From assembly GCF_009469615.1 (NCBI RefSeq), contig NZ_SSXX01000002.1, forward strand, positions 207,501 to 271,500: a stretch of 64,000 nucleotides of DNA. The letters are read 5' to 3'. The translations under genes were made by a program, and so were the position numbers. The stretch's first letter is position 1. Each line of letters begins with the position of its first letter. A model generated the notes under the pieces. It was given only the letters and a program-made list of their open reading frames with translations. It did not search any database and was not told the DNA's origin. The stretch is from Dechloromonas sp. H13 (lineage in GTDB: Bacteria > Pseudomonadota > Gammaproteobacteria > Burkholderiales > Rhodocyclaceae). Positions 3,586-64,000 of this stretch are shown piece by piece.

Positions 3586-4349
3586 TTGGCGAGAATCAGC
3601 TGGATGGCATGTGCGGCGGCGGCCATGCCGAAGACCGAGGTGACGCAGACCGACGAGCCGAATCCCGCACAGCTGAGCCCTGCCGGCGCGCCTTGTGTCT
3701 CGCAGCTGGCCTGCGGATCGGGGTAGCGCAGCGCTTCCGTCGAGAATACGGCGGCTACCCCGAATTTCTTCCGGGGATCGCGCGGGAATCCATGTTCGCG
3801 ACGGAGCTGTGCGCGAACCTTGGCCAGCAGCGGATCCTGCACGGTCGCCGACAGGTCGCTTATCCTAACCTGGGTTGGGTCGATCTGGCCACCGGCAGCA
3901 CCGGCGACGACCATCGGCATGCGCAGACGCCGGCAGTGGGCGATCATGGCAGCTTTGGTGCGTGCCTGGTCGATGGCATCGACCACGACATCGAAGCGGG
4001 GTGTCAGGATATCCGCCACGTTTTCCGGGGTGACGAAATCCTCGATGCAGGTGACCTCGCAGGTAGGATTGATGGCATGGATTCGTTCGGCCATCGCATC
4101 GACCTTGGCTTTGCCGTAGACATCGCCGAGGGCATGAATCTGCCGGTTGGTGTTGGATTCCGCCACCATGTCGAGGTCGACCGCAGCAAGCTGCCCGATG
4201 CCGGTTCGGGCTAGCGCCTCCAACGCCCACGAGCCAACTCCGCCGACGCCCACGACACAGACGCTGGCATGGATCAGGCGTTCGGCCGCCGCCGGGCCGT
4301 ACAGGCGGGCAACGCCGCCAAAGCGGCGTGCGTGGTCGGCCGCCATCAT
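3582..4349 (-). CDS. tcdA: tRNA threonylcarbamoyladenosine dehydratase (TcdA/CsdL family)
   Basis: E1-like ATP-dependent enzyme that cyclises the t6A base at position 37 of ANN-decoding tRNAs to ct6A. From the ATG at 4349 the protein has 255 residues: Rossmann motif GVGGVGS at 34-40, acidic VDLD at about 57-60 and the ThiF/MoeB-type SNTNRQ at 65-70. The frame is open to 4532, but a GGAGG-containing ribosome binding site (CAGGAGGGCAGGAA) sits immediately before the paired ATGATG at 4349/4346, so the shorter start is preferred. Co-transcribed with corA downstream; divergent from ispB. Confidence 0.93.
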   Translation of the reverse strand: MMAADHARRFGGVARLYGPAAAERLIHASVCVVGVGGVGSWALEALARTGIGQLAAVDLDMVAESNTNRQIHALGDVYGKAKVDAMAERIHAINPTCEVTCIEDFVTPENVADILTPRFDVVVDAIDQARTKAAMIAHCRRLRMPMVVAGAAGGQIDPTQVRISDLSATVQDPLLAKVRAQLRREHGFPRDPRKKFGVAAVFSTEALRYPDPQASCETQGAPAGLSCAGFGSSVCVTSVFGMAAAAHAIQLILAK

Positions 4350-4488
4350 TTCCTGCCCTCCTGCCGGCGCAAAGTAGGCGCCGCCAATGCATGCAGGGGC
4401 GATATGAATGTTTCGGAGTTGCTCATGACACGCCGAGTGTAGCCGAAAGCAACGGCCGGGAAGAAGGCGGAAACCTGGTTTCCTTGTC

Positions 4489-4517
4489 TTGACGACCCGT
4501 CTGCCCACGCCTAAGAT
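4489..4517 (+). promoter_or_regulatory. Sigma70-type promoter for ispB
   Basis: TTGACG at 4489-4494 and TAAGAT at 4512-4517 are separated by 17 bases, a near-ideal sigma70 layout. It places the transcript start about 20 bases before the GTG at 4546 and argues against using the upstream in-frame TTG at 4489, which would lie inside the -35 box. Confidence 0.7.
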
Positions 4518-4545
4518 TCCGCGCTTACCCAAGAGCAGGTTGATT

Positions 4546-5514
4546 GTGACCGTGGAACAGCTTTACGCCCTGATCGGGCAAGACATGAAGGCCGTGGACG
4601 CGGTCATCCGCGATCGTCTCCACTCGGACGTCGCGCTCGTTAGCCAGGTTGCAGAGTACATCATCGCTAGCGGTGGCAAGCGCATGCGTCCGGCGCTGGT
4701 TTTGCTGGCGGCAGGGGCGATGGGCTATCAGGGACGGCAGCATCACGATCTGGCGGCCGTCGTCGAATTCATCCATACCGCCACCCTCCTGCACGACGAC
4801 GTGGTCGACGAATCATCGCTACGTCGTGGTCGCGATACCGCCAATGCCATTTTCGGCAACGCAGCCAGCGTGCTGGTCGGCGACTTCCTGTATTCCCGGG
4901 CCTTCCAGATGATGGTCGAGGTCGATGAAATGCGTATCATGCGGGTGCTCTCCGACGCCACGAACGTCATCGCCGAGGGCGAAGTCCTGCAACTCATGAA
5001 TTGTCACGATGCCGACGTCGACGAGCAGCGCTACCTGCAGGTCATCCGCTTCAAGACAGCCAAGCTGTTCGAGGCCGCCGCGCAACTGGGCGCCATACTG
5101 GGGGGGGCGACACCGGAGATCGAGCGCGCCCTGGCCGACTACGGCATGCATCTTGGAACGGCCTTCCAGCTGGTCGACGACGTGCTCGATTATTCCGGCC
5201 AGGAAGCGGATACCGGCAAGCATCTCGGCGATGACCTCGCCGAAGGCAAGCCGACGTTGCCGCTGATCTACGTGATGCAGAACGGCACGCCCGAACAGGC
5301 GGCCTGTGTGCGCCGGGCCATCGAGGACGGCGGTCGGGACGATTTTCCCGCCGTGCTGGCAGCCATCCACGCCAGCGGGGCGCTGGGCCATGCGCGCCGG
5401 CAGGCGGAACGTGAAGCCGAACGCGCGAGAGAAGCAATTTGCGCGCTGAGGGATTCAAATTATCGGGAAGCTCTGCTAAAATTGACGCTCTTTGCGGTTG
5501 AGAGGAATCACTAG
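4546..5514 (+). CDS. ispB: Polyprenyl (octaprenyl) diphosphate synthase
   Basis: Long-chain trans-prenyl transferase that elongates FPP with IPP to make the ubiquinone side chain. Starting at GTG 4546 it has 322 residues. The two aspartate-rich motifs are DDVVD at about 84-88 and DDVLD at about 211-215; GGKRMRP near the N terminus binds the diphosphate. The track of promoter boxes at 4489-4517 supports the 4546 (or 4552) start rather than the upstream TTG. tRNA-Pro follows 18 bases after the stop, probably on the same transcript. Chain length (octaprenyl) is inferred from beta-proteobacterial relatives. Confidence 0.93.
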   Translation: MTVEQLYALIGQDMKAVDAVIRDRLHSDVALVSQVAEYIIASGGKRMRPALVLLAAGAMGYQGRQHHDLAAVVEFIHTATLLHDDVVDESSLRRGRDTANAIFGNAASVLVGDFLYSRAFQMMVEVDEMRIMRVLSDATNVIAEGEVLQLMNCHDADVDEQRYLQVIRFKTAKLFEAAAQLGAILGGATPEIERALADYGMHLGTAFQLVDDVLDYSGQEADTGKHLGDDLAEGKPTLPLIYVMQNGTPEQAACVRRAIEDGGRDDFPAVLAAIHASGALGHARRQAEREAERAREAICALRDSNYREALLKLTLFAVERNH

Positions 5515-7698: not shown

Positions 7699-9008
7699 GC
7701 CGCGTGCTGGTCGTCGATGACGAGCCGGATATCCGCGAACTGATCGATCTCACGTTGTCGCGCATGGGGCTGGCTGCCGCCTGTGCCGGCAGCGTCGCAG
7801 AGGCGCGGCAGGCGCTGGCCGACGGCGAGTTCCATCTGTGTCTGACCGACATGCGGCTGCCGGATGGCGATGGCCTTGAGGTCGTCCGCTACATCGCCGA
7901 GCACCATGCGCAGACCCCGGTGGCGGTGATCACCGCCTACGGCAGCACCGAAAATGCCGTCGCAGCGCTCAAGGCGGGTGCCTTCGACTACCTGGCCAAG
8001 CCGGTCGGCCTCGAGCAGTTGCGTGCCCTCGTCAAGTCGGCCTTGCGCGTGCCGGGCAGCCAGCAGCAGGGTAATCATCCCCTGCAGTCGCTGACTGGCG
8101 AGTCGGCCGCCATGCAGCAGGCCCGTTCGATGATCGAGCGGCTGGCGCGCAGCCAGGCACCCATCTACATTTCCGGCGAATCCGGGAGCGGCAAGGAGCT
8201 TGCGGCGCGCCTCATCCATGCGCGCAGCGCGCAGGCGAGCGGGCCGTTCGTTCCGGTCAACTGCGGCGCGATACCGGAAAACCTGATGGAAAGCGAATTC
8301 TTCGGGCATCGCAAGGGGGCGTTTACCGGTGCCGAGAGCGATCACGAAGGATTTTTCCAGGCCGCCAGCGGTGGCACGCTGTTCCTCGACGAGGTGGCCG
8401 ACCTGCCGCTGGCGATGCAGGTCAAGCTGCTGCGCGCGATCCAGGAGAAAAAGGTGCGCAAGGTCGGGGTCGCCACCGAGGAGCCGGTCGACGTCCGCAT
8501 CATCTGCGCGACGCACCGGAATCTGCGTGACTGCGTCGACAAGGGCAACTTCCGGCAGGACCTCTACTATCGCCTGAACGTCATCGAGTTGCGCATGCCG
8601 GCCCTGCGCGAGCGGGTCGAGGACATTCCCGCGCTGGTCGCTGCCATCCTGAAGAAGCTCTGCGGCGAGACAGTGCCCCAGGTGTCGGCGGCGGCCCTGC
8701 AGGCGCTGGCAGCCTATCCGTTCCCCGGCAACGTGCGCGAACTGGAAAACATTCTCGAACGCGCGACGGCACTTTGTTCCGGGACGACGATCGAGGTGGA
8801 CGACCTGCATCTGGCGCCGGACGAAATGGGTGGCGAGAATCCCGGGCGTGGCAGCGAGACGCTGGATGACTATCTCAATCGCCTCGAGCGCCAGGCCATC
8901 CTCGAAGCCTTGCAGAAGACCGACGGGAACCGGACTGCGGCCGCCCGCCTGCTCGGCGTTACCTTCCGTTCGCTGCGCTACCGTCTGGAACGGCTGGGCA
9001 TCGAGTGA
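7656..9008 (+). CDS. pilR: Sigma54-dependent response regulator PilR
   Basis: NtrC-type activator of 450 residues. Receiver domain with the acidic pocket DDEPD at 21-25, phospho-acceptor Asp65 and Lys115; AAA+ domain with Walker A GESGSGKE at 174-181, sigma54-contacting GAFTGA at 221-226 and Walker B TLFLDE at 241-246; Fis-type helix-turn-helix at the C terminus (GNRTAAARLLGV). I chose the ATG at 7656, which follows GGGAG by 9 bases, although the frame is open further upstream. Partner of PilS; expected target is pilA, which is outside this window. Confidence 0.94.
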   Translation: MSVARSERRPRGELSRVLVVDDEPDIRELIDLTLSRMGLAAACAGSVAEARQALADGEFHLCLTDMRLPDGDGLEVVRYIAEHHAQTPVAVITAYGSTENAVAALKAGAFDYLAKPVGLEQLRALVKSALRVPGSQQQGNHPLQSLTGESAAMQQARSMIERLARSQAPIYISGESGSGKELAARLIHARSAQASGPFVPVNCGAIPENLMESEFFGHRKGAFTGAESDHEGFFQAASGGTLFLDEVADLPLAMQVKLLRAIQEKKVRKVGVATEEPVDVRIICATHRNLRDCVDKGNFRQDLYYRLNVIELRMPALRERVEDIPALVAAILKKLCGETVPQVSAAALQALAAYPFPGNVRELENILERATALCSGTTIEVDDLHLAPDEMGGENPGRGSETLDDYLNRLERQAILEALQKTDGNRTAAARLLGVTFRSLRYRLERLGIE

Positions 9009-9574: not shown

Positions 9575-10714
9575 ACGGTCGACCGCTTCGCCCAGGCGGT
9601 CGATGCCGGTGGTGTAAGCGAAGCGAATGTGCCTTTCCGGTTCGTTGCTGCCGAAATCGAGACCGGGGGTGGCGGCGACGCCGACCTTTTCCAGCAGGTC
9701 GCGGGCCAGCACGAAGCTGTCGTCGCACAGGCCGGAACAATCGCAATACAGGTAGAAGGCACCTTCCGGGCGGGCGGTGACGCGGAAACCGATATTTTCG
9801 AGGGCCGGCGCGAGAAAATCCCGGCGCCGCCGGAATTCGCCGCGGCGTTCTTCGAGAATGGCGATGGTCTCGGGTGCGAAGGCGGCCAGCGCCGCGTGCT
9901 GCGCCGGCGTCGACGGGCAGAGCACGAGGTTCTGCGCCAGTTTCTCGACGTCGCGGACGTAGGACTCGGGAACGACCATCCAGCCCAGTCGCCAGCCGGT
10001 CATCTGGAAATACTTCGAAAAGCTGTTGATGACCCAGATGTCGTCGCCGGCCGCGCAGGCCGTCGGCGCGTCGATTTCGTAGGTCAGGCCGTGGTAGATC
10101 TCGTCGACCATGAAATGACCGTCCTTCTCGCGACAGGTCGCGGCTAGCGCGGCGATCTCCGGGAGCGTCAGCAGGGTCCCGGTCGGATTGGCCGGAGAGG
10201 CGACCAGCAGGCCCGCCGTGTCAGCGCTCCAGTGGGCGCGCAGCAACTCGGGCGTCGGCTGGAAATTGCTTGCCGGTCCGACCGGGATGCTGCGCGGCCG
10301 CCCTTCGTAGGCGCGCAGGATATGGCGGTTGCACGGGTAGCCGGGGTCGGCGAGCAGCCATTCGCGACCGGGGTCGGCCAGGCAGGCGAACGCCAGGTTC
10401 AGCGCCCCGGAAGCGCCGTTGGTGACGGCGATGCGGCTGGCCGGAACGGGCACGCCGTAGCGGCTGCGGTAGAAATCCGCGATCGCCTCGCGCAGTTCGG
10501 GCAGGCCGAGCGCCTGGGTATAGAGCGTTTTGCCCTGTTTTATCGCGTCGACCGCAGCAGTTGCAATTGGCGCCGGCGTCGGGAAATCGGGTTCGCCGAC
10601 TTCCATGTGGATGATGTCGCGGCCTTCGGCCTGCAACTGATGAGCGCGGGTGAAGAGTTCCACCACATGGAAGGGTTCGATGTCGGCAAGGCGGCGGGCG
10701 GGGCGGTAGGTCAT
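9551..10714 (-). CDS. PLP-dependent aminotransferase, class I/II
   Basis: A 387-residue fold-type I aminotransferase. Substrate-binding GEPDFPTP is at 40-47, SPANPTGT at about 173-180, and the Schiff-base lysine is Lys234 in NSFSKYFQMTGWR. It belongs to the AspC/AlaT-like group; amino-donor specificity cannot be read from sequence. I chose the ATG at 10714 (MTYRPARR), where similarity to the family begins, over a start at 10759. A terminator for the upstream pckG transcript lies just before it. Confidence 0.88.
   Translation of the reverse strand: MTYRPARRLADIEPFHVVELFTRAHQLQAEGRDIIHMEVGEPDFPTPAPIATAAVDAIKQGKTLYTQALGLPELREAIADFYRSRYGVPVPASRIAVTNGASGALNLAFACLADPGREWLLADPGYPCNRHILRAYEGRPRSIPVGPASNFQPTPELLRAHWSADTAGLLVASPANPTGTLLTLPEIAALAATCREKDGHFMVDEIYHGLTYEIDAPTACAAGDDIWVINSFSKYFQMTGWRLGWMVVPESYVRDVEKLAQNLVLCPSTPAQHAALAAFAPETIAILEERRGEFRRRRDFLAPALENIGFRVTARPEGAFYLYCDCSGLCDDSFVLARDLLEKVGVAATPGLDFGSNEPERHIRFAYTTGIDRLGEAVDRLAAYFGR
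10547..10558 (+). repeat. Dispersed motif copy (GTYGACCGCARC)
   Basis: GTCGACCGCAGC, preceded by T-rich TTTTGCCCTGTTTTATCGC. Lies inside the aminotransferase gene, antisense to it (codons for AAVDA). Confidence 0.6.
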
Positions 10715-17252: not shown

Positions 17253-17984
17253 ATGCGCTTGGCCCTCTACGTTACCTGCCTGGTCGACCTGATGCGTCCC
17301 GCCGTCGGCCTGGCGGCGCTGCGTCTGCTGGAGGAAGCCGGTTGCGAGGTGGTCGTGCCGGCGGCGCAGACCTGCTGCGGTCAACCCGCCTGGAGTGCCG
17401 GAAATCGCGATCTGGCGCGCGACCTGGCGCAGAAGGCGATCGCCGAGCTGGAAGGCTGCGACTACGTGGTGATTCCCTCGGGCTCGTGCGCGGACCAGAT
17501 CCGCAACGTCTATCCGCAACTGCTTGCCGACGATCCGGCCTGGGCGGCGCGCGCGCAGGCGGTCGCCGCGCGCAGCCACGAACTGACCGCCTTCCTTGCC
17601 GACGTGCTGGCGCTCGATGCGGTGCCGGGGGCGTTCGCCGGCAGCGTCACCTATCACGATTCGTGCAAGGGCCTGCGCGGCCTCGGCGTCAAGGCGCAGC
17701 CGCGGGAGCTGCTGGCCCGGGTGCGCGGACTGACGCTGGCCGAAATGCGCGACTGCGAGGAATGCTGCGGTTTCGGCGGCGCCTTCGCGGTACGTTTCGG
17801 CGACATCTCGACCGCCATCGTCGATCGCAAGTGCGAGGCGATTGCCGCCGCCGGCGCCGATGCCGTGGTCGGCGGCGACCTTGGCTGCCTGCTCAATATC
17901 GAAGGTCGCCTGCGGCGGCGCGGCGACACGCGTACCCGGGTTCTGCATGTGGCCGAAGTGCTGGCCGGGGCCGAGCCGGCATGA
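17253..17984 (+). CDS. lutA: Lactate utilisation protein A, (Fe-S)-binding subunit
   Basis: LutA/LldE-type CCG-domain protein of the LutABC L-lactate dehydrogenase complex, expected at the cytoplasmic face of the membrane. Two cysteine-rich CCG motifs are present: TCCGQ at about 40-44 and CEECCGFGG in the second half, as in heterodisulfide reductase subunit B relatives that bind non-cubane Fe-S clusters. 243 residues from the ATG at 17253; the frame opens slightly upstream at a TTG. First gene of a six-gene overlapping operon; its TGA overlaps the lutB ATG. Confidence 0.93.
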   Translation: MRLALYVTCLVDLMRPAVGLAALRLLEEAGCEVVVPAAQTCCGQPAWSAGNRDLARDLAQKAIAELEGCDYVVIPSGSCADQIRNVYPQLLADDPAWAARAQAVAARSHELTAFLADVLALDAVPGAFAGSVTYHDSCKGLRGLGVKAQPRELLARVRGLTLAEMRDCEECCGFGGAFAVRFGDISTAIVDRKCEAIAAAGADAVVGGDLGCLLNIEGRLRRRGDTRTRVLHVAEVLAGAEPA

Positions 17985-19423
17985 CGGCGGCCGTCCGTTC
18001 TCAGGCCATGTTCTTCCAGGCGCGCGCTGCCCGGCAGGCGCGCGACAGCGGCCTGCAGAAGACGCTGGAGAAAGCCAGGCCGCTGTTCGTCGGCAAGCGG
18101 GCCAAGGGGCTCGCCGGGCTGGCCGACGACGGCCTCGACTTCGCCGGCCTGCGCGCCGCCTGCGAGGCCATCCGCCGTCGCGTCGTCGATGACCTCGACG
18201 TCTGGCTGGAACTTTTCGAGGCACGGGCCACGGCCGGCGGCGCCGAGGTGCTGTGGGCGCGCGACGGCGACGAGGTCGCGCGACTGGTGGTCGACATCGC
18301 GCAGCGCCATGGCGTGACCAAGGCGGTCAAGTCGAAATCCATGCTTTCCGAAGAGGCGCGCCTCAACGAGGCGCTCGCCGCCGCCGGCATCCGGCCGGTC
18401 GAAACCGACCTCGGGGAATACATCGTCCAGCTCGCCGGCGAAGCGCCCTCGCACATCATCGCCCCGGCGGTGCACAAGACGCTGGCCGAGGTCGAAGCAC
18501 TGTTCGCGCAGCATCACGAGCGTCCCGTCCAGGCGCGGACCGCGGCCGACATCCCGGCGCTGGCCGCCGAGGCGCGGGCCGTGCTGCGCCAGCATTTCCT
18601 GTCGGCGGAAATGGGCATTTCCGGCGCCAATTTCCTGATCGCCGAGAGCGGCTCGGCGGCGCTGGTGACCAACGAGGGCAACGGCCGCATGGTCACGACG
18701 CTGCCGCGTGTGCATGTCGTCGTCACCGGGATCGAGAAGATCGTCCCGACGCTCGACGATTTCGCGACCCTGATGCGCCTGCTGCCGCGCTCGGCGACGG
18801 GGCAGGGCATTTCCAACTACGTCTCGCTGTTGACCGGGACGCGCGGCGCCGACGAACGGGAAGGACCGGAAAAGACCGTCTTCATCCTCGTCGACAACGG
18901 ACGGGCCGCGCTCGCCGGGTCGGATTTTGCCGCCATGCTGCGTTGCATCCGCTGCGGCGCCTGCATGAACCACTGTCCGGTCTATTTCTCGCTCGGCGGC
19001 CACGCCTACGGCTGGGTCTATCCCGGGCCGATGGGCTCGGTGCTGACCCCGTTGTTCACCGGCATCGAGAACGCCCTCGACCTGCCGCACGCGTCCACCG
19101 GCTGTAACCAGTGCGGCAGCGTGTGTCCGGTCAATATTCCGCTGCCGGCGCTGATGCACCGCCTGCGCGAGATGCAGCACGAACGCGGCCTGCGTCCGTG
19201 GCGCGAGCGCTTAGCCCTGCGTGCCTGGGCCTGGCTGGCGGCGCGGCCCGGCCTCTATCGCTGGGCGACACGCCGGGCGGCGCGCTACCTGCGCTGGCTG
19301 ACCGACGAGAGCGGGCGCATCCGCGTTCTCGGCCTGGCGCCGGAGTGGACCGCCGGGCGCGACCTGGCACCGCCGCCGGGCCGGACTTTTCACGAACTTT
19401 ACGCAGCAAGAAAGAGAGCTTGA
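17981..19423 (+). CDS. lutB: Lactate utilisation protein B, iron-sulfur subunit
   Basis: LutB/LldF subunit of 480 residues: an N-terminal LUD domain, then a ferredoxin-like segment with two [4Fe-4S] motifs, CIRCGACMNHCP from Cys322 and CNQCGSVCP from Cys375, and a C-terminal hydrophobic-basic tail. Transfers electrons from lactate oxidation towards the quinone pool (family knowledge). Starts in an ATGA overlap with lutA, which shows translational coupling; the next gene begins two bases after its stop. Confidence 0.94.
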   Translation: MTAAVRSQAMFFQARAARQARDSGLQKTLEKARPLFVGKRAKGLAGLADDGLDFAGLRAACEAIRRRVVDDLDVWLELFEARATAGGAEVLWARDGDEVARLVVDIAQRHGVTKAVKSKSMLSEEARLNEALAAAGIRPVETDLGEYIVQLAGEAPSHIIAPAVHKTLAEVEALFAQHHERPVQARTAADIPALAAEARAVLRQHFLSAEMGISGANFLIAESGSAALVTNEGNGRMVTTLPRVHVVVTGIEKIVPTLDDFATLMRLLPRSATGQGISNYVSLLTGTRGADEREGPEKTVFILVDNGRAALAGSDFAAMLRCIRCGACMNHCPVYFSLGGHAYGWVYPGPMGSVLTPLFTGIENALDLPHASTGCNQCGSVCPVNIPLPALMHRLREMQHERGLRPWRERLALRAWAWLAARPGLYRWATRRAARYLRWLTDESGRIRVLGLAPEWTAGRDLAPPPGRTFHELYAARKRA

Positions 19424-20124: not shown

Positions 20125-21080
20125 TGCAGCGCATCGTCTACCTGGAACGCGAGTCGATCATCGCCGACGTCCGCCGCCCGGGCTTCGCCCACGACTGGGT
20201 CGAATACCCGAAGACGGCGCCGGCGCAGGTGGTCGAACGCCTGCAGGGCGCCAGCATCGCCATCATCAACAAGGCACCTTTGCCGGCGGTTGCGGTCGAC
20301 GCCCTGGCGGACCTGAAAATGATCGCCGTGGCGGCGACCGGCACCAACATCATCGATCTCGATGCCTGCCGGCGGCGCGGCATCGTTGTCTCCAACATCC
20401 GCGGCTATGCCGACCACACGGTGCCGGAACACGCGCTGGCGCTGCTGCTGGCGCTGTCGCGCAACCTGGTTGCCTGGCGCGCCTCGGTGCAGGCCGGGCG
20501 CTGGCAGCAGTCGGACCAGTTCTGCCTGTTCGACCACCCGATCCGCGACCTGCATGGCGCCACGCTCGGCCTGATCGGCAGCGGCAGCCTGGGCAACGGC
20601 GTCGCACGGCTGGCCGAGGCCTTCGGCATGCGCGTGCTGCGCGCCGAACACAAGGGGGCGACCGCGCTGCGCCCCGGCTACACCGATTTCGCGCAGGTCC
20701 TGCGCGAGGCTGACGCGATCAGCCTGCATTGCCCGCTGACGCCGCAGACGCAGGGCCTGATCGGCGAGGCCGAACTGCGCACGATGAAGCCGACGGCGCT
20801 GCTGATCAACACTGCGCGCGGCGGCCTGGTGGACGAGGTAGCGCTGATCCGGGCGCTGCAGGAAGGCTGGATCGCCGGCGCCGGCTTCGACGTCATCACC
20901 GCCGAACCGCCGCCGCCGAGCCACCCGATGGTCGCGCCAGAACTGCTGGCGCTGCCCAACTTCCTGTTGACGCCGCATGTCGCGTGGGCCAGCCGGCCGG
21001 CCATGCAGGCGCTGGCCGACCAGCTGATCGACAACATCGAAGCCTTTGTCGCGGGCAGTCCGCGCAACCGGGTGGCGTGA
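20124..21080 (+). CDS. D-2-hydroxyacid dehydrogenase
   Basis: NAD(P)-dependent dehydrogenase of the glycerate/D-lactate family, 318 residues. It carries the Rossmann motif GSGSLGNG, the catalytic arginine in NTARGGLVDE, an acidic partner following it, and the catalytic histidine in LTPHVAWAS. It is closest in style to glycerate or hydroxypyruvate reductases. Its place between lutB and lutC, with one-base and three-base overlaps, suggests that D-lactate or a related 2-hydroxyacid is fed into, or balanced against, the LutABC reaction (inference). Confidence 0.87.
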   Translation: MQRIVYLERESIIADVRRPGFAHDWVEYPKTAPAQVVERLQGASIAIINKAPLPAVAVDALADLKMIAVAATGTNIIDLDACRRRGIVVSNIRGYADHTVPEHALALLLALSRNLVAWRASVQAGRWQQSDQFCLFDHPIRDLHGATLGLIGSGSLGNGVARLAEAFGMRVLRAEHKGATALRPGYTDFAQVLREADAISLHCPLTPQTQGLIGEAELRTMKPTALLINTARGGLVDEVALIRALQEGWIAGAGFDVITAEPPPPSHPMVAPELLALPNFLLTPHVAWASRPAMQALADQLIDNIEAFVAGSPRNRVA

Positions 21081-21727: not shown

Positions 21728-21939
21728 GCATTACCCTGGCCGTGCGCGGCGACTACATCCAGCTCGACCAGCTGCTCAAGGCCACCGGCCTCTGCGATTC
21801 CGGCGGCGCGGCGCATGCCGCCATCGCCGAGGGGCGGGTCAGGGTGGATGGTGCGGTCGACACCCGGAAACGGGCCAAATTGCGGCCGGGGCAGACGGTC
21901 CAGTTCGCCGGCGAGGAAGTCCGGCTGGTCGCCGAATAG
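21724..21939 (+). CDS. S4-domain RNA-binding protein (YbcJ-like)
   Basis: A 71-residue single S4 domain. Core features are LDQLLKATGLCDSGGAAH, an invariant-type GRVRVDG turn and RKRAKLRPGQ. Such small S4 proteins bind structured RNA, often ribosomal (family knowledge). Last gene of the lut operon by overlap, but it is probably a housekeeping passenger. Confidence 0.88.
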   Translation: MSITLAVRGDYIQLDQLLKATGLCDSGGAAHAAIAEGRVRVDGAVDTRKRAKLRPGQTVQFAGEEVRLVAE

Positions 21940-24194: not shown

Positions 24195-24345
24195 CGTGCC
24201 GCGCCCGGCGGGGTGCAGTGTTGTTGTTTGTTGTCATCAAATCAGTATAGCGCCGTTGGCACTGCCGGGATTTGCGCGAAAACCGGCGCCGGTTGCGGTC
24301 GACCGTCTAAAATAAGCAAATTCTGATTCGCAGGGACGCGCCGCC
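24195..24345. other. Divergent intergenic region pit / TDT transporter
   Basis: About 150 bases between two divergent starts. It contains one copy of the dispersed motif (24291-24304) followed by an A/T-rich stretch CTAAAATAAGCAAATT that may carry promoter elements for the TDT gene. No ORF or clear operator was seen. Confidence 0.45.
24291..24304 (-). repeat. Dispersed motif copy (intergenic)
   Basis: On the minus strand reads GGTCGACCGCAACC, preceded by TTTGCTTATTTTAGAC. Between the divergent pit and TDT genes, outside any gene. Confidence 0.65.
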
Positions 24346-44902: not shown

Positions 44903-45883
44903 CTACTTGTTGCCCTGCTTGAGCGCGATGGCCGCCCTGACCGGGTCGGTCACCACCTTGTCGCCGGCGCTCAGGCCGGCCAGCACTTCGATCTCACCCT
45001 GGCCGACGGCGTCGCCGATGCGCAGCTGGCGCAGGCTGAGGCGGTTGTCGGCACCCAGCACGTAGACGGCGGCGACTTCGCCGCGGCGCACGACGGCCTG
45101 TGCCGGCACGGTCAGCTTCTCGGCCTGGCCGAGGACGAAATGGACGCGCGCGAACATGCCCGGCGTCGCCTCCGGCACCGGCGGCAGGCTGACGCGCACC
45201 TGCGAGACGTGGGTCGCGGTGTCGGCGGTCGGCAGCAGCTTGACGGCGGTCGCATCGACCCACTTGTTGAGTTCCGGGAACTCGACGCGCGCCGTCCTGA
45301 CGCTGCGCATGTCATTCAGGCGGTATTGCGGAATGCTGGCGGTGACGCGCAGGCCGCCCGGTTCGTAGATCGTGAACAGCGGCTTGCCGGGCGTCGCCAT
45401 GTCGCCGAGTTCGGCGTGGCGGCGGGCGACGACGCCGGTCAGCGGCGCAACGATGGTGGCGTGGCTCTCGCTGGCGCCCGCCGCGGCGCGGGTGGCGGTG
45501 GCCGCGTCGTAGTCGGCCTTCGCCTTGTCGAGCGCGGCGGCGCTCATGAATTTCTGGGCGACCAGGCTTTTCGTGCGCTCGTAGTTGAGTCTGGCGTTGG
45601 CGTACTGGGCGTTGGCGGCACGCGCCGCTTCCTCCGCCTCGCGCGCGTCGATGCGCATCAGTACCTCGCCCTTGCTCACGCGCTGGCCGGCGTCGGCCTT
45701 CACTTCGATAATCCGGCCGGCCGTCTGGGCGCCGACGGTGGTCTGCTGGACGGCCTCGACCAGCGACTCGGCCGGGAAGCCCAGATCGACGCGGTGCGGC
45801 TGGACGACGACGCTTGGCAGTTCCTGCGCGGAGGCGGCTGCGGTCAACGCCCACAAAAGGCCAAAAATCAGTTTTGTCTTCAT
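44903..45883 (-). CDS. RND periplasmic adaptor (membrane fusion protein)
   Basis: 326 residues: signal peptide (cleavage near ASAQ, residue 20), beta-barrel/lipoyl segments (VGAQTAGRIIEVKADAGQRVSKGEV), a helical hairpin (ARAANAQYANARLNYERT) and a second lipoyl half (ESHATIVAPLTGVVARR). It should link the RND permease to an outer-membrane channel encoded elsewhere. It starts 20 bases after the LysR gene stop on the same strand, so that regulator may sit in the same transcript. A copy of the dispersed motif lies over the signal-peptide codons. Confidence 0.88.
   Translation of the reverse strand: MKTKLIFGLLWALTAAASAQELPSVVVQPHRVDLGFPAESLVEAVQQTTVGAQTAGRIIEVKADAGQRVSKGEVLMRIDAREAEEAARAANAQYANARLNYERTKSLVAQKFMSAAALDKAKADYDAATATRAAAGASESHATIVAPLTGVVARRHAELGDMATPGKPLFTIYEPGGLRVTASIPQYRLNDMRSVRTARVEFPELNKWVDATAVKLLPTADTATHVSQVRVSLPPVPEATPGMFARVHFVLGQAEKLTVPAQAVVRRGEVAAVYVLGADNRLSLRQLRIGDAVGQGEIEVLAGLSAGDKVVTDPVRAAIALKQGNK
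45836..45848 (-). repeat. Dispersed motif copy with extended T-tract
   Basis: Minus strand GTTGACCGCAGCC preceded by ATTTTTGGCCTTTTGTGGGC, over the adaptor signal peptide. Nearly identical upstream tract to the copy at 55477. Confidence 0.65.
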
Positions 45884-49842: not shown

Positions 49843-51138
49843 TCAGCGCGCGGCGTCGCCCGCCGCCGGCCGCCAGATGTTGCGGCAGCGCGTTTCGCGA
49901 ATCCACCAGCTGGCGAGGGCACCGAACAGCGCGCACAGCGTGACGACGAGGACGCCGTTGCGCCACGCAGCGAGATCGTAGATGCGGGCGCCGTTGAGCA
50001 TTTCGCCGCGCCAGCCGAGGTCCATCACCCAGCCGACCAGCGGTTGCAGCAAGGCGCCGGCGAGAAAGCCGCCCATGTTGGCGACGCTGGTCGACATGCC
50101 GGAGAGTAGCGGCGGGTTGACCTCCTTGGCGCACGCCCAGGTCAGGCTGAAGCCGGCGGTCGACAGTCCCATCAGCCCGAAAAGCGCGAACGAGAGCCCG
50201 AGCGGCATCGTCGCGCCGGACAGCCAGATCAGCCAGATCGCTGTGTACAGGTGGGCGGCGGCGATCAGCACCGGCTTGCGCCGGCCGATGCGGTCGGACA
50301 GCGTGCCAATGAAGAAGCAGCCGACGGCGAAGCCGCCGAACCACAGCGACAGGTGGCTCGCCGCGGTCGGGCGCGGCATGCCGTGCACCTGCATCAGGTA
50401 GGGTGTCGCCCACAGGCCGGCGAAGGTGAAGAAGGCGCCGGACATGCCGGTATTGACCAGGATGGCCGGCCAGGTGGCACGGTTGCGGATCACCGCAAGC
50501 AGGCCGGAGAGGACGACGGTGCGGTCGAATTTCGGGGCCGCGGTGCCGCTGCCGGCGTCCGGGCGGTCGCGCACGATCAGCCAGCAGCCGGCGGCGAGCA
50601 GGAAGGAGACGACGCCGATGCCGATGAACACGCCGCGCCAGCCGGTTGCCTGGGCCAGCCCGGAGAGCGGGGCGCCGGCCAGCACCGAGCCCAGGTTGCC
50701 GATCAGCATGCAGACGCCGACCATGGTCGCGAAGCGGTTCTCCTCGAACCAGACGGCGATCAGCTTGAGCATGGCGATGAAGGTGACCGAGACGCCGAGG
50801 CCGATCAGCGTGCGCCCGGCGAGCGCCCAGTCGAGCGTCGGCGCGAAGCCGAAGAGGAAGCTGCCGAGGCCGCCGACGACACCGCCCAGCGCGAGAATCC
50901 GGCGCGGCCCGAGGGTGTCGACGAGGATCCCCGTCGGGATCTGCATCACCGTATAGACGTAGAAGTAGGTCGCTGCCAGGACGCCGAGCGAGGTCGCCGA
51001 GGTGGCGAAGGCGGCGGCCAGGTCCTGGGCGATGCCGGCCGGCGCAAAGCGCTGGAAGAACGACAGGATGTAGGCGACGGCGACGACGCCGAGCGCCAGC
51101 CAGCGTCGGCGCTGCTGCTCGGCCGTCAGGGCGAGCAC
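49843..51138 (-). CDS. MFS transporter
   Basis: 431-residue major facilitator with about twelve helices. The A-motif-like segments are DTLGPRRILALGG after TM2 and GTLSDRIGRRKP after TM8. FFQRFAPAGIAQDL near the N terminus resembles the oxalate/formate or nitrate-type sugar-phosphate antiporter branch, without a decisive substrate signature. It starts at a GTG three bases after the antiporter stop, so it is co-transcribed with the Kef-type gene. Confidence 0.85.
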   Translation of the reverse strand: MLALTAEQQRRRWLALGVVAVAYILSFFQRFAPAGIAQDLAAAFATSATSLGVLAATYFYVYTVMQIPTGILVDTLGPRRILALGGVVGGLGSFLFGFAPTLDWALAGRTLIGLGVSVTFIAMLKLIAVWFEENRFATMVGVCMLIGNLGSVLAGAPLSGLAQATGWRGVFIGIGVVSFLLAAGCWLIVRDRPDAGSGTAAPKFDRTVVLSGLLAVIRNRATWPAILVNTGMSGAFFTFAGLWATPYLMQVHGMPRPTAASHLSLWFGGFAVGCFFIGTLSDRIGRRKPVLIAAAHLYTAIWLIWLSGATMPLGLSFALFGLMGLSTAGFSLTWACAKEVNPPLLSGMSTSVANMGGFLAGALLQPLVGWVMDLGWRGEMLNGARIYDLAAWRNGVLVVTLCALFGALASWWIRETRCRNIWRPAAGDAAR

Positions 51139-51141
51139 CGC

Positions 51142-52500
51142 TCAGGCCCTGGTCGAGTGCCGGCGCAGCAGCACGGTGAGGATGGGCGGCGTCAGCAGGG
51201 TGGTCAGGATGACCATGATGACGATCACCGAGAACATCGCCTCGCTCATGACACCGAGCTTCTTGCCGACCATCGCGAAGATCAGGCCGACCTCGCCGCG
51301 CGGCACCATGCCCCAGCCGACCAGCCACGGGTTCATGCCCTTGCCGGCGGCGAAGCCGGCGGCCAGCTTGCCGATCACGGCCGCCACCGTGATGCCGAGC
51401 GCGACGGCGACGACCTTGGGGTCGGCGAGCGCGGTCAGGTCGACCTGCATGCCGGTCAGCACGAAGAACACCGGCACGAAGAAGTAGCCGATGGGTTCGA
51501 GCATGTGCTCGTGCTGGTGGCTGGTATGACGTTCGAGCACCTTTCTGATTTTTTGCTGTTTTTCGGTGTCGACCGCAACCGGCAGCAGCGCCTCGATATC
51601 CTGCACCAGCTTGGGCGTTTCGAATTCCTTGAGGAACACCGGTTCGAACAGCAGGCCGGCGGCGAAGGCGCCGATGATCGGCGCCAGCCCGACGGCGTGC
51701 GCCAGCCAGGCCATGAACAGGCCGACCACCAGGACCAGCGAGAACAGCATCGAGTGGCTTCGGTCCAGGTGCGATACCCAGTGCAGCAAGCGCGGCGCGA
51801 CGGCGCGGCCGATGGCGATCGAACCGCCGAGGAAGGCGACGGCCTTGGCGATGATCAGCAGTACGTCGACGACGCTCACCGTGCCGGCCTCGACCAGGCT
51901 GGAAACGACGGCGAGGATGACCAGGCCGAGGACGTCGTCGATCACCGCGGCGCCGAGGACGACCTGCGCTTCCGGCATCTTCAGCTTGCCGAGGTCACGG
52001 AAGACGCGGCCGGTGATGCCGACCGAGGTAGCGGCCAGCGTTGCGCCGAGGAACAGGTAGGCGTTGAATTCCATGCCCGGCAGTACCAGCGGGCCGGCGA
52101 CGAAGGCGCCGAGCACGAAGGGCACGGCGATGCCGACCGAGCCGACCAGCGAGGCGCGGGCGCCGACGCTGACGAGGTCGCCGAGCCGGGTTTCAAGACC
52201 GATCTGCAGGAGCAGGATGATGACCCCGAGCTCAGCCATGAACATGATGATCGGGTCGTTGGCGATGGTGTCGAAGTAATGGAAGCCGAGCAGGCCGAGG
52301 TTGCCGAGCATGACGCCGAGCAGCAGTTCGCCGAGGACGGCCGGAAAGCCGATCTTCTGGGCGAGCGGTGCGAAGAGACGGGCGGCGAGCAGGATGATGG
52401 TCAGCCACAGCAGGTTCTCGCCGACCACGTCGGAACCGGCGGCGAATACCGGCCAGGCGGCGGCGAGCAGGGCAAGCGGGAAGAGGCGGCGGAGTGTCAT
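51142..52500 (-). CDS. Cation:proton antiporter, CPA2 (Kef) type
   Basis: 452-residue membrane antiporter with about thirteen helices and an N-terminal signal-like helix (LFPLALLAAAWPVFA). The CPA2 core is recognisable by GELLLGVMLGNL, ATLAATSVGITGRVF and AAVIDDVLGLVILAVVSS, with the paired aspartates of the ion site. It lacks the C-terminal RCK domain of KefB/KefC. I chose the ATG at 52500; the frame opens to 52560. Expected to exchange K+ or Na+ for protons. Confidence 0.87.
   Translation of the reverse strand: MTLRRLFPLALLAAAWPVFAAGSDVVGENLLWLTIILLAARLFAPLAQKIGFPAVLGELLLGVMLGNLGLLGFHYFDTIANDPIIMFMAELGVIILLLQIGLETRLGDLVSVGARASLVGSVGIAVPFVLGAFVAGPLVLPGMEFNAYLFLGATLAATSVGITGRVFRDLGKLKMPEAQVVLGAAVIDDVLGLVILAVVSSLVEAGTVSVVDVLLIIAKAVAFLGGSIAIGRAVAPRLLHWVSHLDRSHSMLFSLVLVVGLFMAWLAHAVGLAPIIGAFAAGLLFEPVFLKEFETPKLVQDIEALLPVAVDTEKQQKIRKVLERHTSHQHEHMLEPIGYFFVPVFFVLTGMQVDLTALADPKVVAVALGITVAAVIGKLAAGFAAGKGMNPWLVGWGMVPRGEVGLIFAMVGKKLGVMSEAMFSVIVIMVILTTLLTPPILTVLLRRHSTRA
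51568..51580 (+). repeat. Dispersed motif copy with extended T-tract
   Basis: GTCGACCGCAACC preceded by ATTTTTTGCTGTTTTTCGGT, in the Kef-type antiporter gene, antisense. Confidence 0.65.
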
Positions 52501-55036: not shown

Positions 55037-55551
55037 TTGGCGGGCGGGGGCGCGGGATCGTTGATCGGCACCGACTGGGTCATGAAGATGACCGCCTTGC
55101 CGCCGTCCATGTTGGCGTGCAGCGCCTCGACCAGCGGCGGGTTGATCGCCGCCTCGCTGTCCCACTTGATGATGAAGTTGGCGCCGGAGCCGCCGGAGGC
55201 GTCGTTGAGTTCGACGAACAGTTCGAGCGTGCCGTAGGGCGGGATGGCGACGGGCGTCGGCACGCGCTCGCCGAGCAGCTTGCCGTGGGTGTCGTAGTAG
55301 CGTGCGGAGAGGATGCGCAGCGGGCGCCGCCCGTCGGTGTTGCGGATGCTGACCAGCGCCGAGAGCAGCACCTGCGACGCCTTGCCGCTCTTGCCCAGGT
55401 TGCCGTAGAGCATGTGCGAATAGATCGGCAGGTAGACCGTCTGCCCGCTGCTCGGCGCGCGCACCTCCTGGGCGATGGTTGCGGTCGACCCCGCAAAAAG
55501 GCCAAAAATGGCTGCCCACAGGCAACTGCGGACCACTGCGGATCCTTTCAT
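55033..55551 (-). CDS. DUF3124 periplasmic protein
   Basis: 172 residues with a signal peptide (AAIFGLFAGSTATIAQ, cleavage near residue 28). The domain starts QTVYLPIYSHML and carries FIIKWDSEAAINPPLVEALH. DUF3124 has no known function; its coupling here to a K+ channel and PII-like genes suggests an accessory of ion transport (inference). A copy of the dispersed motif covers the signal-peptide codons. Confidence 0.85.
   Translation of the reverse strand: MKGSAVVRSCLWAAIFGLFAGSTATIAQEVRAPSSGQTVYLPIYSHMLYGNLGKSGKASQVLLSALVSIRNTDGRRPLRILSARYYDTHGKLLGERVPTPVAIPPYGTLELFVELNDASGGSGANFIIKWDSEAAINPPLVEALHANMDGGKAVIFMTQSVPINDPAPPPAK
55477..55490 (-). repeat. Dispersed motif copy with extended T-tract
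   Basis: Minus strand GGTCGACCGCAACC preceded by ATTTTTGGCCTTTTTGCGG, over the DUF3124 signal-peptide codons, in a different frame from the adaptor copy. Confidence 0.65.
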
Positions 55552-58098: not shown

Positions 58099-58720
58099 CT
58101 ACTGCTGCCCGTAGCCGGCGAATTTGTCGAGCACCGCGCGCATTTCCGCCGGCGTCAGCAGCACCGGCCGGCCGAGCTGGCAGGCGCGCCAGTATTGCTC
58201 GCACAGTTCCTCAAGTTCGATGGCCAGCGCCAGCGCCTCGCCGAGGTCGCGCCCGGCGACCAGCAGGCCGTGGTTGGCGAGCAGGCAGCCCTTGCGGCCT
58301 TCCATGGCGTGCATGGCTGCGGTCGACAGTTCCGGCGAGCCGAAAATGGCGTAGTCGGCACAGCGGATGGTGTCGCCGCCAAAACGGGCGATCATGTAGT
58401 GGAAGGGCGGAATGTCGCGGCGCAGGCAGGCGAGGCTGGCGGCGAACGGCGAATGGGCGTGCAGCACGGCACCGACTTCCGGCCGCGCGGCGTAGAGATC
58501 GCGGTGGAAGCGCCACTCCGACGACGGCTTGCGCCGGCCGTGGCGGGCGCCGTCCGGCGTCAGCAGCGGGATGTCGTCGGGCACCAGCGCGGCGTAGGCC
58601 ATGCCGGTCGGCGTGATGTAGAAATCCTGGCCGCTGCGCACGCTGACGTTACCTGCGGTGCCGCGGTTGAGGCCGCTGGCGCCCATCGCCAGGGCGGTGG
58701 CGATCAGTTGCTGGCGCGGA

Positions 58721-58728: not shown

Positions 58729-59809
<1,081 letters not shown>

Positions 59810-60445: not shown

Positions 60446-60523
60446 ATGTAATACTACGCCGTTTTTCAGCTTGCGGTTGCCTGCCGGGCTGCCTTGGCGC
60501 ATGATTTTCACCTCTTTTTGACC

Positions 60524-60535
60524 GTCGACCGCAAC
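60524..60535 (+). repeat. Dispersed motif copy (5' leader of aminotransferase)
   Basis: GTCGACCGCAAC preceded by ATTTTCACCTCTTTTTGACC, ending at the base before the methionine aminotransferase ATG; non-coding. Confidence 0.65.
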
Positions 60536-61690
60536 ATGCAAACCCCGATCCGCATCGACTCCCGCTTCCCGCACATGGGGACCACCATCTTCACCGTGAT
60601 GTCGCGGCTGGCGGCCGAGTGCGGGGCGATCAACCTGTCGCAGGGCTTCCCCGATTTTCAGGCCGAGCCGGCGCTGTTCGACGCGGTGCATCGCCACATG
60701 CTGGCCGGGCGCAACCAGTATGCGCCGATGGCCGGCATGCCGGAGTTGCGCCAGGCGATTGTGGACAAGGTGGCGGCGCTTTACGGCGCGCGCTTCGACG
60801 TCGAGTCCGAAGTGACGGTCACCGCCGGGGCGACGCAGGCGATCTTCACGGCGATCGCCGCCTTCGTCCGGCCGGGTGACGAGGTGATCGTCTTCGAGCC
60901 GGTGTACGACTCCTACGTGCCGGCGATCGAGACGGTCGGTGGCACGGCGGTTTATGCGCAACTCAAATTCCCCGACTACGCGCCGGACTGGGAGCAGGTG
61001 CGCCGGCTGGTGACGCCGCGGACGCGCATGATCATCGTCAATTCGCCGCACAATCCGACCGGCAGCCTGGTGACCGCGGTCGACCGCGAAAAACTGGCGG
61101 AATTGGTGCGCGGCACCGACATCGTCGTGCTCTCCGACGAGGTCTACGAGCACATCCTGTTCGACGGCGAGCGCCACGCCAGCCTGTGCGGCCACCCGGA
61201 ACTGGCGGCGCGCAGCATCGTCGTCTCCAGCTTCGGCAAGACCTACCACATCACCGGCTGGAAGATCGGCTACGTCGTCGGCCCGGCGGCGCTCATGGCC
61301 GAGTTCCGCAAGGTGCACCAGTTCAACGTGTTCACCGTCCACACGCCGTCGCAGCTGGCGCTCGCCGACTACATGCAGGACGCCTCCCGCCACCTAGGGC
61401 TGGCAGCCTTCTATCAGGAGAAGCGCGACTTTTTCCGCGACCTGCTGGCGGCGACCCCGTTCGAGTTGTTGCCCTGCCGCGGCACCTATTTCCAGCTGGC
61501 GAGCTACAAGGCGGTCTCCGACCTGCCCGACCGCACCTTCGCCGAGTGGATGACGCGCGAGGTCGGCGTCGCGGTGATCCCGGTGTCGGTGTTCCACGCC
61601 GACGGGCACGACGACAGGGTGGTGCGCTTCTGCTTCGCCAAGCAGGAGGAAACCCTGCGCGCCGCCGGCGAGCGGCTGCGGCGCTTATGA
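60536..61690 (+). CDS. Methionine aminotransferase (YbdL-like)
   Basis: 384-residue PLP enzyme that transaminates 2-keto-4-methylthiobutyrate to methionine in relatives. Substrate region NLSQGFPDF at 33-41, SPHNPTGS, and the PLP lysine Lys235 in [13 protein letters not shown]. Divergent from the AbrB-Doc-mtnA operon; since both MtnA and this enzyme belong to methylthio salvage, the neighbourhood makes sense. The start at 60536 immediately follows a copy of the dispersed motif. Confidence 0.9.
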
Positions 61691-62189: not shown

Positions 62190-62203
62190 GGAGTCTGGCC
62201 CAG

Positions 62204-62240
62204 GCAACAAAAAAGCCGCTCGCAGCGGCTTTTTTGTTGC
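62204..62240. terminator. Bidirectional terminator between mscL and glnE
   Basis: GCAACAAAAAAGCCGCT pairs with AGCGGCTTTTTTGTTGC around loop CGC. A-run and T-run flank the GC stem on both sides, so it serves both strands. Confidence 0.92.
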
Positions 62241-62253
62241 CCGACCGGTTCCG

Positions 62254-64000
62254 TCACTCCCCGAAAACCGTCCGCCACAGCGTGTTGACCGCAACGATGT
62301 GCCGTTCGATGCTTTCCCGGTCGATCAGTGCCTTGGGCGCGGCGCTCAGGCGCTTGGCGTGCTGCCGGCGGCGGTATTCGCGGTAGGCGTCGCCGGCGGC
62401 TTCTGCCTGGTCGGCGGGAATCAGCCCGAGTTCGGCCGCCATGCGCAGCAGGGCGATGTTGCCGAGGTTGCCGGTCAGGCTGCGGTGCTGGCTGGCGTAA
62501 CCGAGCACCAGGTACTGAACGATGAACTCGACGTCGATGATGCCGCCGGCGTCGTGCTTGAGGTTGAAGCCGGTTTCGCTCTTCGAGGCGTGGGCATCGT
62601 ACATCTTGCGGCGCATGGCGACGACTTCCTCGTGCAACTTCGCCAGGTCGCGCGGCAGGCAGAGAATCTCGCAGCGGATTTCCTCGAAGCGCGCGCCGAC
62701 CGCCGGGTCGCCGGCGCAGAAGCGGGCGCGGGTCAGCGCCTGGTGTTCCCAGACCCAGGCGTTCTTCAGCTGGTAGTCGCGGAAGGCGTCGACCGACACG
62801 GCAAGCAGGCCGGAATCGCCGTTCGGGCGCAGGCGCAGGTCGGTCTCGAACAGCATGCCGGCCGGCGTCTGGCTCGCCAGCCAGGTGCTCAGGCGCTGGC
62901 CGAGGCGGGTGTAGTTTTCCGCCGCCTCCTGGTCATCGTCATCGTAGAGATAAACGAGGTCGAGGTCGGAGACGTAGCCGAGTTCCTTGCCGCCCATCTT
63001 GCCGTAGCCGATGACGGCGAATTTCGGCGTCTCGCAGTGGCGCTTCTTGATCGTCCGCCAGCACAGCGGCAGGGTCTCCTGGACGATGGTGTCGGCCAGT
63101 TCGGTCAGGTGGTCCGAAAGGCGCTCGATGGTCTGCAGGCCGGCGAGGTCCTGCGCCAGCAGGCGGAAGATCTGCGCGTGGTGCATTTCGCGCAGGATGT
63201 CCATCTCGCGCTCGGTGTCGCCGGCGTGGTCGGCCAGGTTGCGCCTGAGGTTTTCGCGGAAGCCGGCCCAGTCGGTGGCGATGTCGTAGAGGCGCGGGTC
63301 GAGCAGCTCGTCGAGCAGCAGCGGATGGCGGCCGAGATAGTCGGTCGCCCACGACGAGGCGCAGACCATGTCGGCGACGCGTTTTAGCGCCATCGGGTAT
63401 TGCTGGAGCAGCGCCAGGTAGGCGCCGCGGCGGGCGATGCTCTCGACGAAATGGAGGCCGCGAGCAAGCGTGGTGTCAGGGTCGCCGGTGGCGCCGGCGG
63501 CCTCGATCAGGCGCGGGCCGATGGCGTCGAGGCGCGCGCGGTTGGTGGTCGGCAGCTGCAGGTAGCGGCTGGAGGCGCGCAGTTCGGCGAGGCGCCGGAT
63601 GGCCTCAGTCGGCTGGCGGAAGCCGAGGTTGCCGAAGGCCTCGACCGCCGTTTCGTCGTCGAGCTGCCCCATCCAGAGGCCGGTGAGCGGGTGTTCGCCG
63701 GCCTCCGGGTCGGAAAAGATCTGCTCGAAATGGCGGCTCACCTTGTCGCGGTGGGCGTTGAGCGCGGCGAGCATGGCCGGCCAGTCGGCGAATTCCATGC
63801 TGTGCGCGACGCTGGCCTGGTCGGCCGGGTTTTCCGGCAGCATGTGCGTCTGCTTGTCCTCGACATACTGCAGGCGGTGTTCGAGGCGGCGCAGGAAGAT
63901 GTAGGCCGCGCGCAGTTCGCTCTCGGTCTCGGCCGGCAGCAGCTGGCGGCTGACCAGCTGCCTGAGGACGGCCAGCGTCGGGCGGATCTGCAGCCCGGGG
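62254..64000 (-). CDS. glnE: Glutamine synthetase adenylyltransferase/adenylyl-removing enzyme GlnE (partial)
   Basis: The C-terminal part of GlnE; the frame remains open to the right edge, so the N-terminal domain lies outside. The visible nucleotidyltransferase domain has MGGKELGYVSDLDLVYLYDDD (around 62940-63005), the catalytic GG...SDLDL signature, followed by the helical domain ending TLWRTVFGE. Regulates glutamine synthetase by adenylylation under control of PII proteins. An internal ATG at 63843 is not the start. Confidence 0.95.
   Translation of the reverse strand, partial: PGLQIRPTLAVLRQLVSRQLLPAETESELRAAYIFLRRLEHRLQYVEDKQTHMLPENPADQASVAHSMEFADWPAMLAALNAHRDKVSRHFEQIFSDPEAGEHPLTGLWMGQLDDETAVEAFGNLGFRQPTEAIRRLAELRASSRYLQLPTTNRARLDAIGPRLIEAAGATGDPDTTLARGLHFVESIARRGAYLALLQQYPMALKRVADMVCASSWATDYLGRHPLLLDELLDPRLYDIATDWAGFRENLRRNLADHAGDTEREMDILREMHHAQIFRLLAQDLAGLQTIERLSDHLTELADTIVQETLPLCWRTIKKRHCETPKFAVIGYGKMGGKELGYVSDLDLVYLYDDDDQEAAENYTRLGQRLSTWLASQTPAGMLFETDLRLRPNGDSGLLAVSVDAFRDYQLKNAWVWEHQALTRARFCAGDPAVGARFEEIRCEILCLPRDLAKLHEEVVAMRRKMYDAHASKSETGFNLKHDAGGIIDVEFIVQYLVLGYASQHRSLTGNLGNIALLRMAAELGLIPADQAEAAGDAYREYRRRQHAKRLSAAPKALIDRESIERHIVAVNTLWRTVFGE

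Follow-up and report, generated by a model that had tools for sequence, protein, structure and literature searches.

Why should one 12-base word recur in sense, in antisense and between genes along a short piece of a bacterial genome? The question is raised by a 64-kb window (the whole stretch analysed here; contig C15, positions 207501–271500) of the 3.66-Mb genome of Dechloromonas sp. H13 (G000), in which the word GTYGACCGCARC occurs in 18 exact copies, against a mean of 0.12 and a maximum of 1 in 100 shuffles. We regard the word as quite probably the core element of a DNA uptake sequence, i.e. a chromosomal self-recognition label of naturally competent members of the genus; in its appearance and apparent evolution the motif resembles the DNA self-recognition labels of Haemophilus and Neisseria. 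Among the roles offered for the word in the original prediction, which was made from the letters of the window, that of an uptake-like sequence is the best supported.

All 18 predicted copies were found in the window. Their number and strands were given correctly, and six of the minus-strand starts, each listed one base too low, are corrected here to 20289, 24292, 35070, 45837, 55478 and 58316. The T-tracts said to lie upstream of many copies proved to be more regular than claimed: an A/T triplet stands at exactly −19 to −17 in 18 of 18 copies (the window-wide triplet rate is 0.032), and 11 of the 18 have a near A/T triplet within −11 to −5. The sequence ATTTTTGGCCTTTT is indeed shared before the words at 45837 and 55478, and near matches following T-runs are present at 29010 and 33342. 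The relaxed motif WWW-N16-GTYGACCG (W, A or T) was detected at 27 places, with the 18 strict words among them (Table 1). The copies do lie in sense, antisense and intergenic positions, as had been noted; that at 24292 is intergenic according to a simple gene caller, while that at 60524, likewise claimed to be intergenic, falls inside a called open reading frame (ORF) whose start is unsure. An Rfam scan of the window gave tRNA alone above threshold (tRNA-Pro).

In the whole genome there are 722 strict copies (375 forward, 347 reverse); the reversed pattern gives 9. Based on 464 kb with 119 strict copies, the full motif consists of RWWWW (−20 to −16), a weaker T-tract (−9 to −7) after a spacing of about 6 bases, GTYGACCGCARC and a weak MRnC, and no signal beyond this motif stands out in the 60 flanking bases on each side. 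The two A/T tracts are ten bases, or one helical turn, apart on the same side of the core. Over 724 kb of the genome the far triplet is in place in 161 of 173 strict words, and the near triplet in 108 of 173, the latter against a rate of 0.13 for a random 7-base stretch. Sites anchored on WWW include 145 perfect copies of GTCGACCGCA, where 0.3 were expected from G/C-anchored sites, and 89 copies with one mismatch (7.3 expected), a comparison made in this genome only. T at core position 3 (40 of the 89) and G at position 10 (26) are tolerated variants; the other mismatches number 23. Perfect copies in this genome thus far outnumber singly mismatched ones, the pattern by which DNA uptake sequences are recognised, and the available part of one account names such an excess as a puzzling attribute of both the uptake signal sequence (USS) and the DNA uptake sequence of Neisseriaceae (DUS) (PMC1626085).

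A codon-usage artefact was ruled out by synonymous-codon shuffles within genes, as called with our simple codon-model caller: 40 shuffles of the 464 kb gave a mean of 34.9 copies and a maximum of 40 against 119 observed, 33 of the 119 lying outside or across called genes, where such a shuffle alters little or nothing. These codon-shuffled controls, together with the T-tract flanks, had been proposed as the check that might overturn the prediction, which they did not; its statement that selection or deposition acts on DNA and not on protein is backed by the excess. By location, the 119 words comprise 44 antisense, 42 sense and 30 intergenic ones, together with 3 that run over gene ends; intergenic DNA makes up only approximately 11% of the stretch, yet holds 30 words. 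Of the genic words, those in antisense favour a single frame (41 of 44), and those in sense are concentrated in two frames (25 and 16 of 42).

An orientation-dependent signal for segregation or recombination, also among the roles suggested, is unsupported, because the relaxed motif is balanced between the strands (115 copies on one, 112 on the other) over 660 kb of contig C6, each of whose 11 bins has a negative GC skew; the test covered this part of one contig, without a located origin or terminus. Chi and FtsK-orienting polar sequence (KOPS) type words are short, frequent and skewed to the direction of replication, whereas the present motif has no such strand bias on these 660 kb. Even spacing of the copies is weak at best (C6: coefficient of variation 0.88, Kolmogorov–Smirnov p=0.013; word-rich relative G092: 0.99, p=0.72).

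For 8 of the 18 window words an alignable homologue was found among the loci of 26 relatives. Of the 52 aligned rows, 38 are gap-free, with the word either intact or changed by point substitutions, and 14 are gapped (the word is kept in four of the 14, and one of the 14 has a gap of 21 bases). Judging from these alignments, motif copies arise by point substitution and not by insertion. Among word-rich loci (14 and the window) the identity of the words was 0.858 against 0.801 for flanks in the same frame (47 words, 38 positive, p=1e-5), and against eight low-count loci, among which L038 and L098, whose counts are somewhat raised, were placed, it was 0.683 against 0.790 (39 words, 5 positive, p=5e-5); both p-values are too small, because homologous words recur and the tests are not independent, and the figure of 0.683 is partly a selection effect, because the sites were picked for carrying the word. 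This comparison did not include loci L041, L044, L052 and L055. Conservation better than that of the flanks thus seems to be limited to comparisons between motif-rich species.

The nearest relatives of the glnE-like gene of the window are Azonexus and Dechloromonas records, and 76 genomes of this genus (Azonexus/Dechloromonas relatives) were counted. Forty of them hold 429–2410 relaxed copies (reversed control, 18–67), and the remaining 36 hold 210 or fewer. Eight of the low-count genomes (G091, G095, G097, G098, G112, G005, G007 and G125) stand at 141–210, above their own controls, and may contain either decaying sets or unrecognised dialects. Outside the genus, all 297 sampled genomes of the order (300 drawn; six of the 297 from the same family) have at most 71 relaxed copies, mostly near or below their reversed controls, and a few exceed these several-fold, e.g. 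33 against 5 in G247. Strict copies, counted for 29 of the 30 named loci (L044 left out), number 450 in A. hydrophilus ZS02, 390 in D. hortensis MA-1 and 400 in D. denitrificans ATCC BAA-841, and 9 in D. hankyongensis XY25, 11 in Dechloromonas sp. CZR5 and 3 in Azospira sp. I13. A tree of glnE places the low-count D. hankyongensis–CZR5 lineages in a well-supported clade with four members; two more low-count relatives, which have 98 and 94 relaxed copies, attach to it more weakly, and the low-count L049 is sister to the word-rich L035. This single-gene tree, with 9 of its 24 inner branches unresolved, suggests that the motif was lost or gained more than once in the genus.

The motif is not identical in all of the word-rich species. 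Stretches of five such genomes were aligned on WWW-N16-GTYGACC, and that part is common to the dialects because the alignment was anchored on it; beyond it, the five have at least four different endings. The ending is GTYGACCGCARC in the present genome, GTYGACCGTGRA in G090 (41 sites), mostly GTTGACCGTRG with an extra TTTTTTCCG before it in G099 (22 sites), GTYGACCGC and then, at most sites, G or A in G030 (56 sites), and GTYGACCG with a loose end in G092. Unanchored word counts recovered the same words in G090, G099 and G030; in G092 other repeated words outrank the motif. No comparable word was seen in 200 kb of the low-count G089, and no obvious one in 100 kb of the low-count G095.

The motif is scarce in DNA of foreign appearance. 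The second contig of G092, perhaps a plasmid (146 kb, of which 140 kb was read), holds 7 relaxed copies against 76 expected from 200 kb of the main contig, and a 33.7-kb element with a phage-type integrase, which splits comEC in the word-rich G002, holds none against approximately 7 expected from the mean density of that genome. On C6 of the present genome, two motif-free gaps of the longest class contain integrase genes (417843–419123 and 646861–648267), and the gaps inspected also hold type I restriction-modification genes, the minor pilin cluster and a cluster of glycosyltransferase genes with 49% G+C; this inspection, from which the third-longest gap (119243–131531) was left out, is not an independent test.

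Comparison with the established systems, as far as the accessible parts of their descriptions go, reveals likenesses to both. With the USS the motif shares many copies, a very strong core, an origin by substitution and the existence of types within a family (PMC12616744, PMC1626085), as well as two A/T tracts on the same flank of the core, separated by approximately one helical turn; the reverse complement of the present dialect, GYTGCGGTCRAC, has TGCGGT in common with the USS AAGTGCGGT. The differences are that the near tract is centred approximately 12 bases past TGCGGT here and lies right beside the core in the USS, that the far tract is the strong one here, and that the inner core GCGG, found in the dialect of this genome, is missing in the GACCGTG (CACGGTC) dialects. 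The motif is not a USS, because some dialects lack GCGG and the tracts stand in a different register, and the likeness is probably convergent, because the host is a betaproteobacterial genus. With the DUS, which also has dialects within Neisseriaceae (PMC3630211), it shares enrichment, dialects in a clade, relatives without the motif and, in G090, inverted pairs; unlike it, the DUS core GCCGTCTGAA has an inner CTG and, in the portion of the descriptions available, is contiguous and without flanking tracts. Membership in the USS or DUS proper was therefore rejected, the inner cores GCGG and CTG not being matched across the dialects. The highly iterated palindrome HIP1 of cyanobacteria is another short word over-represented across the chromosome; it has no fixed distant tract, whereas the present motif is asymmetric and has one.

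We assign the word to the kind of uptake sequences because copy number, sharpness, strand balance, origin by substitution, dialects, scarcity in foreign-looking DNA and phased tracts match together; an uptake bias, a receptor and competence of these species are what we infer from that match. Under this proposal, a component of the type IV pilus or of the competence machinery would capture free DNA of kin at the cell surface; this component would bind the GACCG core and use the two A/T tracts to make contact or to bend the DNA. Labelled DNA would be taken up and recombined more often, and point mutations that make or perfect a label could spread by recombination because labelled DNA is preferentially taken up. 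The expected outcome would be hundreds of near-perfect copies on both strands, mostly in genes at codon-tolerant frames, and few copies in foreign DNA; dialects would arise as the receptor drifts, and labels would be lost where the preference is lost. With somewhat less assurance, we favour the view that this is a third, independently evolved uptake-sequence system, in environmental betaproteobacteria, confined to one genus, with at least four dialects, scarce or absent in about half of the species, and with a receptor not revealed by the occurrence of those pilin and competence families that were tested. Its standing as a third lineage is drawn from a motif that is neither USS nor DUS, taken together with the statement, in the accessible part of a recent account, that uptake-sequence systems are known from Neisseriaceae and Pasteurellaceae only (PMC12616744). 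Our literature search, with subscription papers and bioRxiv mostly outside it, found no uptake-sequence work for Dechloromonas, Rhodocyclaceae or Burkholderiales; matches for Azonexus natural transformation and Dechloromonas natural competence look unrelated, judged by listing, as do the titles among the matches listed for the string GTCGACCGCA, and a broader search gave no title on this genus among the matches listed. If the reading is true, the dialects could act as barriers to genetic exchange between species, and Haemophilus-like phased tracts with a different core would suggest a common geometry imposed by DNA capture at the surface. A third case, with 40 motif-rich genomes and 36 with little or none among the 76, would permit comparative tests of label origin, dialect change and loss, and of which surface protein reads the label.

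The host has the type IV pilus and competence genes that go with uptake sequences, but low-count species have them equally, which weighs against an uptake role. The present genome encodes an intact-looking ComEC (777 aa, three domains), a DprA match, a ComEA-type match, a major pilin and a minor pilin operon, which includes one pilin of the ComP_DUS family and another that is GspH/FimT-like. By position and appearance, further frames of the operon resemble PilV, PilW, PilX and PilY1; two of the further frames have an N_methyl motif, and the PilX-like one matched no Pfam family. None of the competence and pilin families tested in the 76 genomes separates motif-rich from low-count ones. ComEC is present in 71 of them, rich and low-count alike, and DprA in 75, with no match in the word-rich G019. 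The ComEA type occurs in 75, 67 of these over the cut-off, the nine genomes not over it being both word-rich (G003, G015, G105, G116, G126) and low-count (G004, G025, G123, G124). ComP_DUS, found in 70 of the 76 irrespective of their motif content and in 98 of 120 genomes from the order, is too unspecific to serve as a receptor marker; the layout of the minor pilin operon is identical in the word-rich G000 and G126 and the low-count G089 and G035, and an N_methyl scan of eight genomes, made for a pilin restricted to word-rich genomes, gave no separating operon layout. Broken or truncated comEC occurs in low-count (G018, G035, G117) and word-rich genomes (G002, G008, G019) alike, the breaks in G008 and G019 perhaps being assembly breaks, and loss of the word through loss of comEC is accordingly unsupported. 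Also weighing against an uptake role are the dependence among the identity tests, the near-random number of neighbouring relaxed motifs within 60 bp (9 against 5.3 at random in 724 kb; inverted pairs, clear in G090, are barely over chance here) and the density of relaxed copies, one per 3.1 kb here and one per 1.8 kb in G092, which is sparser than the approximately one per kb of USS and DUS given in the accessible part of PMC1626085.

The chief rival, in our estimate an unlikely one, is an architectural DNA-binding protein: the several hundred sites would be bound by a lineage-specific chromosome-organising or nucleoid protein and serve DNA architecture or chromosome marking. Chromosome-wide copies that are scarce on the second contig of G092, tracts resembling bent DNA, conservation at the DNA level and a patchy presence across the species of the genus would all suit such a protein; it is less easily reconciled with the lack of orientation skew and of regional restriction, save for a few gaps. 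The 23 one-mismatch copies beyond the tolerated variants are also few, unlike the sites of regulatory proteins as the available text of PMC1626085 presents them. Several dialects in one genus better fit a drifting uptake receptor. A link to restriction-modification, DNA methylation or another enzyme acting on GTYGAC-type sites, which resemble the HincII type, is very improbable even though this genome has a type I restriction-modification set, as restriction should deplete sites and not enrich them, and the fixed A/T tract 17–19 bases off would be left unexplained.

That the copies are transcription terminators or other RNA elements we find barely credible. Some inverted pairs in G090 do form stem-loops with a T-run, and words are enriched between genes, but most copies are genic and antisense about as often as sense, and close neighbour pairs hardly exceed expectation. 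To a mobile or self-copying mini-repeat, another role originally suggested, we give next to no credence: the numerous near-identical short copies would be expected of one, yet the idea is largely contradicted, because most homologous rows are free of gaps and it is point changes that make or break the word there, not the presence or absence of whole units, and the flanks in this genome share no sequence beyond the motif.

Table 1. Strict words and relaxed copies of the motif in the 64-kb window (window positions; for relaxed copies the core is given).
Element	Word or core	Full span	Strand	Tracts or sequence	Remarks
Word	4176–4187	4156–4191	+	A/T tract at −19 to −17	
Word	10547–10558	10527–10562	+	far and near tracts	
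Word	17374–17385	17370–17405	−	far tract	
Word	20289–20300	20285–20320	−	far tract	
Word	24292–24303	24288–24323	−	far and near tracts	intergenic; dyad with opposite relaxed copy 24298–24305
Word	28441–28452	28421–28456	+	tracts	
Word	35070–35081	35066–35101	−	far tract	kept in 0/4 aligned relatives
Word	36112–36123	36108–36143	−	tracts	kept in 2/3 aligned relatives
Word	41386–41397	41366–41401	+	tracts	
Word	42631–42642	42611–42646	+	tracts	
Word	44692–44703	44672–44707	+	tracts	
Word	45837–45848	45833–45868	−	upstream ATTTTTGGCCTTTT	
Word	51568–51579	51548–51583	+	tracts	kept in 1/2 aligned relatives (L034)
Word	55478–55489	55474–55509	−	upstream ATTTTTGGCCTTTT	kept in 2/3 aligned relatives (L031, L034)
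Word	58316–58327	58312–58347	−	far tract	kept in 5/11 aligned relatives
Word	59544–59555	59524–59559	+	far tract	kept in 5/12 aligned relatives
Word	60524–60535	60504–60539	+	tracts	kept in 2/4 aligned relatives (L031, L035)
Word	62284–62295	62264–62299	+	far tract	in 3' end of glnE-like ORF; kept in 4/13 aligned relatives
Relaxed copy	8254–8261		−	GTTGACCGGAAC	
Relaxed copy	18829–18836		+		
Relaxed copy	21854–21861		−	GTCGACCGCACC	
Relaxed copy	24298–24305		+		dyad with word 24292–24303
Relaxed copy	29010–29017		+	GTTGACCGGAGC; TTTT and TTTTTT tracts	
Relaxed copy	33342–33349		+	GTTGACCGGAAG; AAAA and TTTTT tracts	
Relaxed copy	39596–39603		−		
Relaxed copy	50157–50164		−		
Relaxed copy	61077–61084		−		

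Several observations were made along with these results. In the dialect samples, G099 (C1:500001–600000; L259–L263) has an unusually long upstream consensus (TTT, TTTTGG and TTTTTTCCG), which exceeds those of the other sampled dialects. Some inverted motif pairs of G090 (C1:500001–600000; L254–L258) form long, terminator-like stem-loops with terminal T-runs. Within 200 kb of G092 (C1:1000001–1200000; L131–L140), other 12-mers are frequent too: GGTGTCGTTGCC occurs 19 times and TTGCCGGTGAGG 18 times, with none in the reversed control.

In the low-count G018, judging by its counts probably D. hankyongensis XY25, only a remnant of comEC was matched (C8:1085724–1086371; L247), and in the low-count G035 the gene was matched in two pieces in different frames (C1:1959178–1959913; L246). 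The parts of comEC lie approximately 33 kb apart in G117 (C1:2218607–2251879; L242, L243) and in G002 (C33:109525–144033; L244, L245), and the DNA between them, of approximately 52% G+C, has genes for a recombinase or an integrase and is free of the motif; in this genus, comEC looks like a gene that mobile DNA has struck repeatedly. On C6 of the present genome, positions 646861–657686 (L201:6861–17686) form an island-like, motif-free region in which genes for type I restriction-modification (HsdR- and HsdM-like) accompany a phage-type integrase, and the glycosyltransferase cluster of 49% G+C (452888–464694; L191, L192), likewise motif-free, adjoins the major pilin gene.

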